This document shows, one piece after another, positions 26,158 through 45,389 of a stretch of DNA of 64,000 nucleotides. The notes beneath the pieces were generated by a model that was given only the letters and a program-made list of their open reading frames with translations, was not told the origin of the DNA and did no database searches. The position numbers and the translations under genes are program-made. Source of the DNA: Zarea fungicola (Eukaryota; Ascomycota; Sordariomycetes; Hypocreales; Cordycipitaceae); contig FWCC01000357.1 in the NCBI GenBank assembly GCA_900169235.1, forward strand, positions 1-64,000. Reading direction: 5' to 3'. Every line of letters starts with the position of its first letter. Positions within the stretch are counted from its first letter, which is position 1.

Positions 26158-28141
26158 ATGGCACAAGCCACTCGAGTCGTCCCCGCTGGGATGGAAAACT
26201 TTGTCGTCGGCTTGATTGGCATGGGCGACATGGGAAAGATGTACGCCGAGAAATTGTCTGAAGCTGGCTGGAGGTAAGTTTGTTGCAATTGTGCGATCAA
26301 TTTGTGCATCCACCCAAATGGTAAGCTTTTCTATTTCTCCCCTCTTCCAAAACTACCCGAGAAAAAACCACCCGAGACGCCACTGTATCTTTTTCTATGA
26401 TGACTAGAGCGCATTTGGCTCGAGTATTACCCGGTGAAGACCCTCTTACCGTTTTGGTGATTGGGAAGGACCCAGGTTTTCCTTGATGAAAACGCTAGCT
26501 ACCTTAACAATAACTACTGTCTGATGAAAAACGTTACAATTGGCTTGGCTATCCAGCAGCTATTCTCAATTCACCGCTCTGTTCTACAATGTCTTGACAG
26601 GGAGAGCATTTCGCTAACAATTGCGACAGTTTCTTTCGTAAACCATACAATGATACCCAATGAATTTATACTCGGCCTGATAACCAGCAACACGCGTGGC
26701 TAACTGCCAAAACTTGTTTGCATAATATAGAATTCTGGCCTGCGACAGAGAAGATAGATATGATAGCCTGAAAGAAAAATACTCTGCCAATGTACGAACA
26801 ATCTGCCTGCCTGCTCCTTTCTGCGACCCTTAATTTTGTTGCTTGTACTCCGTGATCCGGATGCTGAATGGTCTTTCGTGTATAGAAGAACATAGAAATA
26901 TGCCGCAACGGGCATCTTGTATCGCGTGCCAGCGACTACATCATCTACAGCGTTGAAGCTGCAGTGATTGATACCGTCATTAGCAACTATGGCCCTTGTA
27001 CGTGAAGATGAACTGCCCCTTTCGCCCTACTCGTCCCTAACAGCTAGGTTTAGCGACAAAGATGGGTGCCATCGTCGGCGGGCAGACGTCGTGCAAGTCG
27101 CCAGAAATAGCGGCCTTTGAAAAGCATCTCCCGGCGGACGTCGATATCATCTCTTGCCACTCTCTCCACGGGCCCAGTGTCGACCCGACCAACCAACCGC
27201 TCGTGCTCATCCAGCACCGCGCGCCCGATGCCGCGCTCCGAAAGGTCGAGACCGTCCTCAGCTGCCTCAAGTCCAAAATTGTCTACCTCACTGCCCTCGA
27301 GCACGACCGCATCACGGCCGACACCCAAGCCGTCACACACGCAGCCTTTCTCTCCATGGGCAAAGCGTGGCACGCCAACACTCAGTTCCCCTGGACCATG
27401 AGCCGCTATGTCGGCGGGATCGAGAATGTCAAGGTCAACCTCATGCTACGCATCTACAGCCAGAAGTGGCACGTCTACGCCGGCCTGGCCATCCTCAACC
27501 CCGAGGCCAGGAAGCAGGTCGCGCAGTACGCCCGCAGCGTCACGGATCTGTACAAGCTCATGCTCATCGGCGACCTCGACGGGCTCCGCGCGCGCATGTA
27601 TGCCGCGCGCGACAAGGTCTTTGGAACCAAGGCCTGGGGCGCGGCAGCAGCAGGGGATGCCGAAGATGGGGATGAAGGCTCGGCGCGACGACCGCTCATT
27701 GAGCCGTCGGTGCTGTCCTCGTTTGCGCTCGGCAAGCCCGACGACGACGACGAGGCGACGCGCCGCGCCAACAACCACCTCTCGCTCCTCGCCATGGTCG
27801 ACTGCTGGGCGGAGCTCGGCATCGTGCCGTACGACCACATGATCTGCAGCACGCCGCTGTTCCGCCTGCGCCTCGGCGTCACCGAGTACCTCTTCCGCAA
27901 CGCGGCGCTGCTCGACGAGACGCTCGAGACGGCGATTGAGGACAAGACGTACCGCAGCGACGACCTCGAGTTCACGTTTGCGGCACGCGGGTGGGCCGAG
28001 TGCGTGAGCCTGGGCCACTTTGAGACGTGGGAGAAGCGGTTCGTCAGCACGCAGTCCTTCTTCGAGCCCCGGTTTGCCGAGGCCAAGATTGTGGGCGACC
28101 AGATGATGAAGAGGGTCTTTGAGAGCAGCAGAAAGCCGTAA
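26158..28141 (+). CDS. TYR1: Prephenate dehydrogenase (NADP+), tyrosine biosynthesis
   Basis: Converts prephenate to 4-hydroxyphenylpyruvate with NADP+ in cytosolic tyrosine synthesis. Four exons: 26158-26273, 26731-26791, 26886-26997 and 27054-28141, giving 458 residues, the usual size for fungal Tyr1. The Rossmann motif is GMGDMG at residues 21-26. Exon 2 is a 61-nt exon encoding ILACDREDRYDSLK, found by its match to the conserved NADP-binding segment. Exon 3 encodes NGHLVSRASDYIIYSVEAA. Exon 4 holds QTSCKSPEIAAFEKHLP, the SCHSLHGP motif and the helical C-terminal domain (HMICSTPLFRLRLGVTEYLF). Intron 1 is 457 nt, far longer than the others. The exon 3 acceptor is TAGAAG, so one lysine may be in or out. 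The shared promoter with the RCC1 gene is about 285 bp. Confidence 0.94.
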
Positions 28142-32697: not shown

Positions 32698-34285
32698 TGT
32701 TGGGGTGCCGTCTTATGCAGCGGCGGTGTGGATAGTTTGATTTAGGAAGTGGCGAATAAAAAGACTATTGAATAAATGCTTTTGTTTAAGCGATTGCAAG
32801 TAAAGAATGCAAGAGTTGATGTGTGGCGAAGGAGCTGTTGGCAATGGAGAAGCAGCAATTGGCATCAAGATAGGCGAGCGGGCGAGGAACAGTTTCAATC
32901 TCCAATGTTGGCAATATGGAGAGGCTGACACGAACAGAGAAAGAATATTCTACAACGCGGTTCAAAAGGGGACGGTTTTGCGAGGTAAACAAGCTGCTGC
33001 TGCGCGGTTCCAGTTGGCTGGCACCTGGCAGCTGCCAGCGGTGGTCCAGTGCTGTCTATTGGGGAGAAGGTTAGGTTTGCAGGTCACTGGAGATTAGAGA
33101 TGTATGGGAGTATTTATTCCAACAATCCATAATCGATAATTAACATTTCACCGAATCGCGATTTCACAGGAAAAATTGGAATAACCTCATTTACAAGGTG
33201 CAGAGTGGTGTCGCTGGACCATTGGTACGTGCTCATGTATACAGAGAGAGTGGGCGCGCTTGCTATCAAAGGAAGGACCTCGGCTCAACATGCGCATGCC
33301 GTTTATTGCAATTGCAATGCAAGTCTAAATTATTAGTTGGCCAGTGCGAAACAAGACAGTCTCTGCATAATGGTACAGCGGGCGGCACAGGATGCACTGG
33401 ACAGTAGGTAGTCGGCACTAGCTCACTAATTTAACCAACGCGAAAACGAATGTCAACAAAGCCATTGTGGCTAGTGGTTGCCAGGGACACACAACAGCCT
33501 CGGAACAGAGGAGAGGCAGGTGCCGACAACCAATGACGGGCCACCTTTTGCGTCCCTCTCGATCCACCAGCCGAAAATGGCCCGCCACTGGCAATCCGCT
33601 GTCGCCGGCCAAGGCTGCCAGGCACAAGAGTTCGCCCGGAAGCCCCCAAAAAGGCCGCCCCCGTCGCGACTCGCCGAGCTCCTTCAGCGCCCAACGTCCC
33701 TATTTTTAGCGCCATCCTCCCCGGTCTCAGCACTCTGCACGACAGCTTTAGTGCCTGCAGTGGCGTAGCCCAGGGCATCATCGGTACTAAACTTGTCCCC
33801 CTCTCTCCGGCTTGAATCCAAGCTCCCCTTCCCTCCTCCTAACAAACCAAATGCCGTCACGCTGAATCAGTCAATTCGCCGTTGGCCATCTTGTTCATTG
33901 ACACAATTTTCCTCTCCAGTACGTCTGTGGCTGCATCCTCACCATTTGCTGTCTTGAGCTGGGCACTGCGCTTCCACTCTTAGCGTTTCCTACGCGCAAA
34001 CGGCGTGCGTGTCACCTGTTGTAAACAAACCCGTTGGGTTGCTACTGGCACAAGGCACCACTCGCTGCGCGCATTGAAGCCCAAGGCCCAGCTTCAAGAA
34101 GAATATTTGCAAAAAGGAACCAGAATTTGTGGCCGGGAGAACCTTTCCTCTAACAATTCCATTAGAAGCCTATTTTTAGGCCCTCTCCGCCCGGTTTTTA
34201 ATCGATTTAAACACGACAGACCCATTCCCGAGAGACACACACTACCCGCGTTCCCAAATCGAAACCACGCCATCCTTCGCCCACC
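32698..34285. other. Divergent intergenic region
   Basis: About 1.6 kb between divergent starts of the amber-interrupted gene and the Mpv17-family gene. Frames here (for example 33431-33781 minus) have no recognisable motif. The right end is the Mpv17 promoter and leader. Confidence 0.5.
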
Positions 34286-44326: not shown

Positions 44327-44475
44327 TCCCCCATGGCTCAGTTGGCTAGAGCGTTGTAAGTTCTCACTCAGCTCCAAGATCTCCGGTTTTCGGTGGACAC
44401 TTGTAAGCACATTACTAACTAAGATATCAGGGACTGTTAATCCAAAGGTCGGAAGTTCGAGCCTTCCTGGGGGAG
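44327..44475 (+). tRNA. tRNA-Asn(GUU) split by a GT-AG intron
   Basis: Exons 44327-44355 and 44431-44475 join to a 74-nt tRNA. Acceptor stem TCCCCCA (44327-44333) pairs fully with TGGGGGA (44468-44474). The D arm is GCTC/GAGC. The anticodon stem TTGGA/TCCAA exists only after joining. Anticodon loop CTGTTAA gives anticodon GTT. T arm is GGAAG/CTTCC with loop TTCGAGC, and discriminator is G as expected for Asn. A box (TGGCTCAGTTGG) and B box (AGTTCGAGCCT) are intact. The insert falls between positions 28 and 29, not at the usual 37/38. No standard anticodon-loop intron is present. T-runs near 44511 and 44521 could end Pol III transcription. Confidence 0.88.
44356..44430 (+). other. Spliceosome-type intron inside tRNA-Asn
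   Basis: A 75-nt insert beginning GTAAGTTC and ending GATATCAG, with TACTAAC at 44413-44419 (branch A at 44418, 12 nt before the 3' end). These are the donor, branch and acceptor of U2-type fungal introns, and 75 nt matches nearby protein-gene introns in length. Removal restores every base pair of the tRNA anticodon stem. It does not make the short stem-loop intron next to the anticodon expected for the tRNA splicing endonuclease. Confidence 0.8.
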
Positions 44476-45389
44476 CTAACATGTTGTGTTCTTCTCACAA
44501 CATGCCGCCTCCTTTTTTGCTCTTTTTATTTCTATATTGTTAGCCGGCGTGGAAATGAGACAGACGCTCGTGCGAATGCAGCATTCGACACCGACATCTC
44601 AACTCAACAGCTGCAGCTGCAAGGAATATATTGTTGTGAGCCTGCACGTTCTTTTTAACACTCTCTTTCTGCCCCTATCCATTCCTCTCCATAGCAGAAA
44701 CGAACGGAATCATGGTAAAATATATGGCGTGATAAAAGAGAAAGACGGCTCCATCTTATGTGCCCATCAGGAATGTGCATGCCCGCCGTGGAGCCGGGCG
44801 GCCCTCCGCGTCGCTGGGCTTCGGCGGGCTCCGGCCCTTGGCGTAGGCGGCTCCCAACTCCAACGCCCATTACTCGCGAATCAGCGCCGGTTGTAATCTG
44901 ACAGCACGCCAAATGTGCCATGTCCTCGACTGTGACAGTTGTTAAAGTAGCCTAAAGTAGATAGTGGACAGAACGGATCGTGCAGAGAGGCTTGCGAGAG
45001 CAACAAACCCACCCGGGGACATCTCCGGACTCCTTTCCTCGAGCAACGGCCCTTATCTTTATAAATACTCTGCTGACACTCGCATTCTCTTCACCCGGTC
45101 ACCCCTTGAACCAGTTTCCTCGTCGTGACTTTTTTGAAATATTTCCAGCCGCTTGAGCACGCCACACCTCAGCGCCAGCCACCAAGGTTACTCGCAGGGC
45201 CGACCAGTAAATAAAGTACGGGGAGATCCGATAAGAGCAAATCAAGGTTTAAAGGCTTACGTCGAATCCGGCTCTCACTCATTTCTCATCTCATTCAGAC
45301 AAGGACGACTTTGACTCATTCCAATACTCTTCAACTGTCATTTCTCACCGTTTTACTTTTATACTAAAAATTATAAAATTACCGTCATC
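44476..45389. other. Intergenic region upstream of uricase
   Basis: Follows the tRNA and leads to uricase. A GC-rich block at about 44785-44850 stands out from AT-rich surroundings. T-runs just after the tRNA are possible Pol III terminators. The right part holds the uricase promoter and a pyrimidine-rich leader. No gene seen. Confidence 0.5.
45052..45235. promoter_or_regulatory. Pair of GATA sites upstream of uricase
   Basis: CTTATC at 45052-45057 (GATAAG on the minus strand) and GATAAG at 45230-45235, about 335 and 155 bp before the uricase ATG. GATAAG is the core bound by AreA/NIT2 nitrogen regulators, which activate purine-use genes in Aspergillus and Neurospora. Function here is inferred from motif and gene type. 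Confidence 0.45.

Follow-up and report, generated by a model that had tools for sequence, protein, structure and literature searches.

Candidate spliceosomal introns in nuclear tRNA genes of Zarea fungicola

Introns of nuclear tRNAs are regarded as a single mechanistic class that is removed by the SEN endonuclease and lies nearly always at 37/38, a site that SEN, in the established view, measures from the folded tRNA body. The tRNA-Asn(GUU) gene at 44327–44475 of the window (the 64,000-nucleotide stretch analyzed here, contig C323 of a 43.1-Mb, 456-contig genome) is interrupted instead at 28/29, by a 75-nt insert with the ends and branch motif of an mRNA-type intron. The locus raises the question of which machinery would remove such an insert, and whether the gene is alone. 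Judged from sequence, the insert is very probably a U2-type spliceosomal intron in a nuclear tRNA gene, removed by the spliceosome. A spliceosome-type intron in the tRNA gene was the core claim of the original prediction, and it is backed by recurrence, by empty sites in paralogues, and by conserved splice signals.

The interrupted tRNA-Asn gene of the window

On one side of the tRNA-Asn gene is a minus-strand gene that has TPR and ankyrin matches; on the other is a plus-strand uricase gene that is 82–86% identical to its best named matches in Akanthomyces, Aphanocladium, Cordyceps, and Beauveria. As a single gene, the uricase suggests a Hypocreales host close to Cordycipitaceae, whereas a Rictor-like piece gave no information on the closest organism. 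The locus reads TCCCCCATGGCTCAGTTGGCTAGAGCGTT, then GTAAGT...TACTAAC...CAG, then GGACTGTTAATCC...GGGGGAG, which matches the layout of exon, 75-nt insert, and exon that had been claimed for it (Table 1). The joined exons are 74 nt long and can be drawn as a cloverleaf with a GTT anticodon, a 5-bp anticodon stem, A and B boxes, and a discriminator G. The perfect cloverleaf of the original prediction survives as such a drawing, with GTT and a paired stem, but the lowest-energy RNAfold structure of the bare 74 nt differs from it. The lowest-energy fold of the joined exons is the cloverleaf for Asn copies 3–5 and for the Thr gene described below, and not for Asn copies 1 and 2. Neither ARAGORN (bacterial setting) nor Rfam (gathering cut-offs) called a tRNA in the window, so routine annotation could overlook genes of this kind. 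The 3' trailers of Asn copies 1 (CATGTTGTG/CACAACATG) and 2 (ATGTTGTG/CACAGCAT, one G-U pair) have a hairpin in common that precedes a T run, and the flanks farther out look diverged.

Table 1. Coordinates of the tRNA-Asn(GUU) gene of the window and of the related tRNA genes in the genome. The A- and B-box assignments are presumptive and follow the Pol III promoter consensus.
Feature	Location	Strand	Remarks
tRNA-Asn(GUU) 5' exon (positions 1–28)	window 44327..44355	+	Identical in second copy, C391:228762-228898
75-nt GT-AG insert at 28/29, putative spliceosomal-type intron	window 44356..44430	+	No second copy found by genome DNA search
5' splice site GTAAGT	window 44356..44361	+	GTAAGTT identical in 5/5 Asn inserts
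Branch-site motif TACTAAC, presumed branch A at 44418	window 44413..44419	+	TACTAAY in 5/5 Asn inserts, always 11 nt before exon
3' splice site CAG	window 44428..44430	+	AG in 8/8 inserts
tRNA-Asn(GUU) 3' exon (positions 29–73)	window 44431..44475	+	Sequence reading
Anticodon GTT	window 44436..44438	+	Sequence reading and excision geometry
A box TGGCTCAGTTGG, presumed Pol III internal promoter	window 44334..44345	+	Fits consensus
B box AGTTCGAGCCT, presumed Pol III internal promoter	window 44454..44464	+	Fits consensus
3' trailer inverted repeat CATGTTGTG / CACAACATG	window 44480..44504	+	By eye; mostly conserved in copy C391
T6 run, candidate Pol III terminator	window 44513..44518	+	Sequence reading
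tRNA-Asn copy 1	window 44327-44475	+	Insert 75 nt
tRNA-Asn copy 2	C391:228762-228898	-	Insert 63 nt
tRNA-Asn copy 3	C175:282767-282898	+	Insert 58 nt
tRNA-Asn copy 4	C175:283060-283190	+	Insert 57 nt
tRNA-Asn copy 5	C175:283848-283984	-	Insert 63 nt
Lys(UUU), interrupted	C355, D-arm 33725, insert 33750-33803		54-nt GTGAG...CTAAT...AG at 33/34 plus ordinary 37/38 intron
Lys(UUU), uninterrupted paralogue	C252:13679-13767	-	Only a 15-nt 37/38 intron
Leu(UAA)	C98, about 27449-27604	-	58-nt GTAAG...CTAAC...CAG at 34/35 plus 17-nt 37/38 intron
Thr(CGU), interrupted	C172:235090-235230	-	69-nt insert at 35/36

Excision geometry was examined in the five Asn copies and in Thr. Among 30 excisions of suitable geometry in each of the five Asn genes, only the GT-AG excision and one shifted by 1 nt leave a 5-bp stem, a 7-nt loop, and the GTT anticodon. 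Because the shifted excision also passes, the exact edge of the window insert is ambiguous by one base: the GT-AG excision originally claimed as exact does restore the tRNA, but a 1-nt-shifted edge does so equally in the window copy. Asn copies 1 and 2, like Thr, have splice edges that can shift by one base. The sequences of Asn copies 3–5 do not slide, and there the 1-nt shift still gives a stem by using a wobble pair. Of 20,131 GT-AG excisions that were scanned with ARAGORN in the window, 10 produced a tRNA spanning the join, and the 8 listed all lie at the Asn locus, on one strand or the other. With five control pairs of end dinucleotides the yield was 6–10 tRNAs each, and those listed also lie at the Asn locus. 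The control dinucleotides perform alike, and the scan therefore supports the locus and not the placement of the edges.

Recurrence and empty sites

Five nuclear tRNA-Asn(GUU) genes were found in the genome, and all five carry a GT-AG insert at 28/29. A genome DNA search with the joined exons recovered only two of them, both split at the same site, and missed the other three. An anticodon-loop-to-T-arm pattern had 13 matches in the genome, consisting of the five nuclear genes, one mitochondrial tRNA-Asn (C218), and seven that were not tRNAs by eye. The mitochondrial gene is intact and is the sole uninterrupted tRNA-Asn found. A D-arm pattern with one mismatch (15 matches in the genome) returned the same five nuclear genes and no intact tRNA-Asn, and an intact nuclear tRNA-Asn is also absent from the 63 matches of the genome Rfam scan, which is lossy. 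The original prediction had named an intact nuclear copy elsewhere as the main argument against it, and the patterns and the scan turned up none. The five genes have exons of two types (TCCCCCA... and TCCCCTG...) that show no decay, and their insert bodies are divergent. Three of them, one inverted, lie inside 1.2 kb (C175:282767-283984); their exons are identical and their inserts are different, which indicates that these local copies kept their exons and lost insert similarity.

In three further tRNA genes a GT-AG insert splits the anticodon arm: at 33/34 in Lys(UUU), at 34/35 in Leu(UAA), and at 35/36 in Thr(CGU). None of the GT-AG inserts lies at the canonical SEN position. The same arrangement in four more Asn genes with differing insert bodies and in the Lys, Leu, and Thr genes argues against chance. 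Two of the three have an empty site. With its insert removed, the Thr gene on C172 equals an intact gene on C170 at 72/72 nt, and the flanks of the two look unrelated. The interrupted Lys gene after removal and its paralogue are both 89 nt long; all 5 mismatches fall within the ordinary 37/38 intron and the exons are identical. A second CAG lies 7 nt downstream in the Lys gene, but the paralogue is matched only when the first AG is used. Leu(UAA) without its GT-AG insert is a cloverleaf whose 17-nt 37/38 intron pairs with the anticodon, and it was found solely as an interrupted copy (class-II D-arm pattern, 9 matches). Exact removal of the insert thus restores the product as 72/72 nt in Thr, identical exons in Lys, and the stem and anticodon in Asn. 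The Lys and Leu genes retain an ordinary 37/38 intron, so a single tRNA seems to need both splicing systems.

In all, 8 of the 67 nuclear tRNA genes seen have a GT-AG insert, a count that excludes 14 mitochondrial matches of the Rfam scan and an odd tRNA-like match on C309. This census is incomplete, since the genome Rfam scan missed several Ile, Glu, and Leu genes that were found later, and further interrupted tRNA families may be hidden in the genome. Other D-arm patterns (14 and 11 matches in the genome) revealed no further GT-AG insert, no tRNA was recognized by eye among the matches of the pattern GGTNARRGC..GTAWGT in the genome (49 matches, control 100), and one 26-letter pattern had no match in viral and prokaryote contigs.

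Several other features of the tRNA set were noted. Ordinary 37/38 introns are common: a 13-nt intron is present in all three Glu(UUC) genes found (C188:71665, C342:14382, C396:162676), and introns occur in 8/8 called Lys(CUU) genes at eight loci. The odd match (C309:13985-14057; Thr GGT by ARAGORN) has no T4 run in the next 100 nt; it could be a relic or of foreign origin. Among the 63 matches of the lossy Rfam scan, none was recognized as a nuclear tRNA for Ala, Phe, Tyr, Trp, Cys, or Pro; a tRNA-Cys with an ordinary intron is present at locus L087.

Splice signals and the machinery of removal

All eight inserts have GT...AG ends and fit the 5' splice-site consensus GTRAG, with GTAAG in seven and GTGAG in one. 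A GTAAG pattern (18 matches; control 14) had served to find or recover seven of the eight. Of these 18 matches, seven are the tRNA inserts; inspection by eye discounted the other 11, of which two overlap ordinary tRNAs. CTAAY is present in 8/8 inserts, 11 nt before the exon in seven and 10 nt in one. When the five Asn inserts are compared over 40 columns from each end, the invariant parts are GTAAGTT (plus offset 14), TACTAA 13–18 nt before the exon, and the final AG. Conserved spliceosomal signals within diverged bodies point to the spliceosome as the remover.

The intron background of this genome was estimated from signal-enrichment counts, because a search based on open reading frames yielded too few clear introns in the window. 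An intron-like stretch was defined as GTRAGY or GTATGY, a length of 45–80 nt, and CTAAY 8–14 nt before the first YAG, with the 8–14 bounds set after a prior count. The sample was 238 kb of genome DNA from 74 non-mitochondrial loci, in which seven interrupted genes and an intact Lys gene had been masked. It contained 29 such stretches, whereas 20 shuffles averaged 5.5 and never exceeded 9. Their distance from branch motif to AG is commonest at 9–12, and the 10–11 nt of the inserts is within this range. The inserts are 54–75 nt long across the eight genes, and intron-like candidates in sampled genome DNA, tRNA inserts included, are in excess at 45–65 nt. A group I intron was also considered and rejected: the catalytic core of these introns normally takes over 200 nt, and the window had no Rfam match at gathering cut-offs.

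The inserts could in principle be unusual tRNA introns that are cut at ectopic sites by SEN and joined by the Trl1 ligase, with GT, AG, and CTAAY incidental. We consider this very unlikely. Ectopic nuclear tRNA introns with bulge-helix-bulge removal are described in Cyanidioschyzon merolae (PMC3978253, PMC4090602), and the 1-nt shift in two Asn copies reaches 29/30, which PMC4090602 gives as an archaeal site. None of the seven inserts tested, those of the Asn, Lys, and Leu genes, has a strict 4-bp central helix at its junctions, a weak result because two of three ordinary 37/38 introns also lack it. Relaxed bulge sizes allow such a helix in two of the seven, Asn copy 3 and Lys, and the canonical 37/38 controls scored 1/3 by either rule; with two relaxed helices and mixed controls, the absence of the strict motif is no proof. 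A further objection is that the conserved parts of the Asn inserts are GTAAGTT, TACTAAY, and a fixed 11-nt spacing, and SEN is not known to need any of these. It is equally improbable that the interrupted genes are pseudogenes while intact tRNAs encoded elsewhere do the work. Uninterrupted paralogues do exist for Thr(CGU) and Lys(UUU), and the census has gaps; against this, neither the two Asn patterns nor the Rfam scan gave an intact nuclear tRNA-Asn, the five Asn copies have exons free of decay, and Leu(UAA) came up only interrupted in its 9 pattern matches.

Introner-like elements are a source of spliceosomal intron gains in ascomycetes, and the original prediction had offered them as one origin of the insert. 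The four different insertion sites in tRNAs, two with empty-site paralogues, would suit a mobile introner family that is still spreading in this genome. However, each of the eight inserts matches only itself in the genome DNA search, and pairwise alignment counts of seven compared bodies gave no clear likeness beyond the splice signals. The search missed three of the five Asn genes and so sees close copies only; within that reach the introner option is not supported, and we give it the slightest of chances. A further alternative accepts spliceosomal inserts but has the genes transcribed by Pol II, with the tRNA ends then cut from a longer RNA. Spliceosomal splicing is usually coupled to Pol II, and a T5 run occurs inside two of the eight inserts, those of Asn copy 2 (C391) and Leu (C98), compared to no internal run of T5 or longer in 59 uninterrupted ARAGORN-called genes. 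Intact genes also most often have T5 as their first T run downstream (25 of 58 genes with such a run). The T5 runs within these two inserts are thus in tension with full-length transcription by Pol III, and a leaky T5 or transcription by Pol II could explain them. On the other side, the A and B boxes are intact, runs of T5–T11 start 1–37 nt downstream of all seven interrupted genes tested (those of Asn, Lys, and Leu), and U6 is a precedent for a Pol III transcript that is spliced by the spliceosome. Transcription by Pol II is an unlikely reading, and the boxes and downstream T runs favor Pol III as most likely the transcribing polymerase.

Proposed route, consequences, and known systems

From the sequences, their recurrence, the empty sites, and the conserved signals, we infer transcription, splicing, the polymerase, and the order of steps as follows. 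The gene would be transcribed, most likely by Pol III from the A and B boxes. The spliceosome would recognize GTAAGT, TACTAAC, and AG, the 75-nt intron would leave as a lariat, and positions 28 and 29 would be joined. A normal anticodon arm would fold only after the insert is removed. All five nuclear tRNA-Asn(GUU) genes found would mature by the same route, and the decoding of Asn codons in the cytosol would then depend on the spliceosome. Exact removal of the GT-AG insert from Lys and Leu leaves an ordinary pre-tRNA with a 37/38 intron, which suggests that the spliceosome acts before SEN. The insertion sites all fall within 28–36, possibly through reverse splicing into the exposed anticodon arm or through tolerance in the spacing of the A and B boxes.

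Inserts in several tRNA genes, including every nuclear Asn copy found, suggest that the mRNA splicing machine is needed for essential tRNAs. On balance we lean toward a broader proposal, in which the spliceosome is a second, essential tRNA-splicing machine of this lineage. Every cytosolic tRNA-Asn and the only Leu(UAA) found would depend on it, some tRNAs would pass through spliceosome and SEN in a fixed order, reverse splicing into the exposed anticodon arm would have produced repeated intron gains, and tRNA supply would be tied to splicing. If the genes are spliced in this manner, the divide between mRNA and tRNA splicing is broken, translation of Asn codons and of UUA is spliceosome-dependent, and the empty-site pairs are available to test spliceosomal intron gain. 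The genes are also a warning that essential tRNA genes can escape routine tRNA annotation.

What is new here is a set of nuclear tRNA genes with apparent mRNA-type introns, two of which carry both intron types. We know of no described spliceosomal intron in a nuclear tRNA gene. The original prediction knew of none either, and none was found in the open-access literature as available in part, a scope that excludes subscription papers and preprints. According to the tRNAscan-SE 2.0 paper, tRNA genes of eukaryotes have at most one intron (PMC8450103), and nucleomorph exceptions are reported in PMC4090602, whose main text does not contain the string 'spliceosom'. The available portion of a Diplonema paper (PMC10161547) contains no tRNA case.

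Like canonical SEN/TSEN introns, the inserts interrupt the anticodon arm of nuclear tRNA genes and sit between the A and B boxes; a canonical intron is present as well in Lys(UUU) and Leu(UAA). The inserts differ in their positions (28/29, 33/34, 34/35, and 35/36), GT-AG ends, and branch motif. Ectopic tRNA introns are described in a red alga and a nucleomorph (PMC4090602). In Cyanidioschyzon merolae, the Guillardia theta nucleomorph, and archaea, introns likewise occupy sites other than 37/38, sometimes two or three per gene, but as described there these introns use bulge-helix-bulge or related folds, or are very short with the mode of removal unknown. The inserts of Z. fungicola have conserved spliceosomal signals and no strict bulge-helix-bulge. 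They would share spliceosomal intron gain with the fungal introner-like elements, but no repeated family was found for them and their hosts are tRNA genes. The closest parallel is U6 snRNA, a Pol III product that holds an mRNA-type intron in Schizosaccharomyces pombe; this intron is thought to derive from reverse splicing (PMC10484740, whose reference list includes Tani and Ohshima 1989 and 1991 on the U6 mRNA-type introns). Both cases would place a spliceosomal intron in a small non-coding RNA, a Pol III product in U6 and most likely one here. However, U6 is itself a part of the spliceosome, whereas the hosts here are tRNAs of four families, including all the nuclear copies found of one tRNA.
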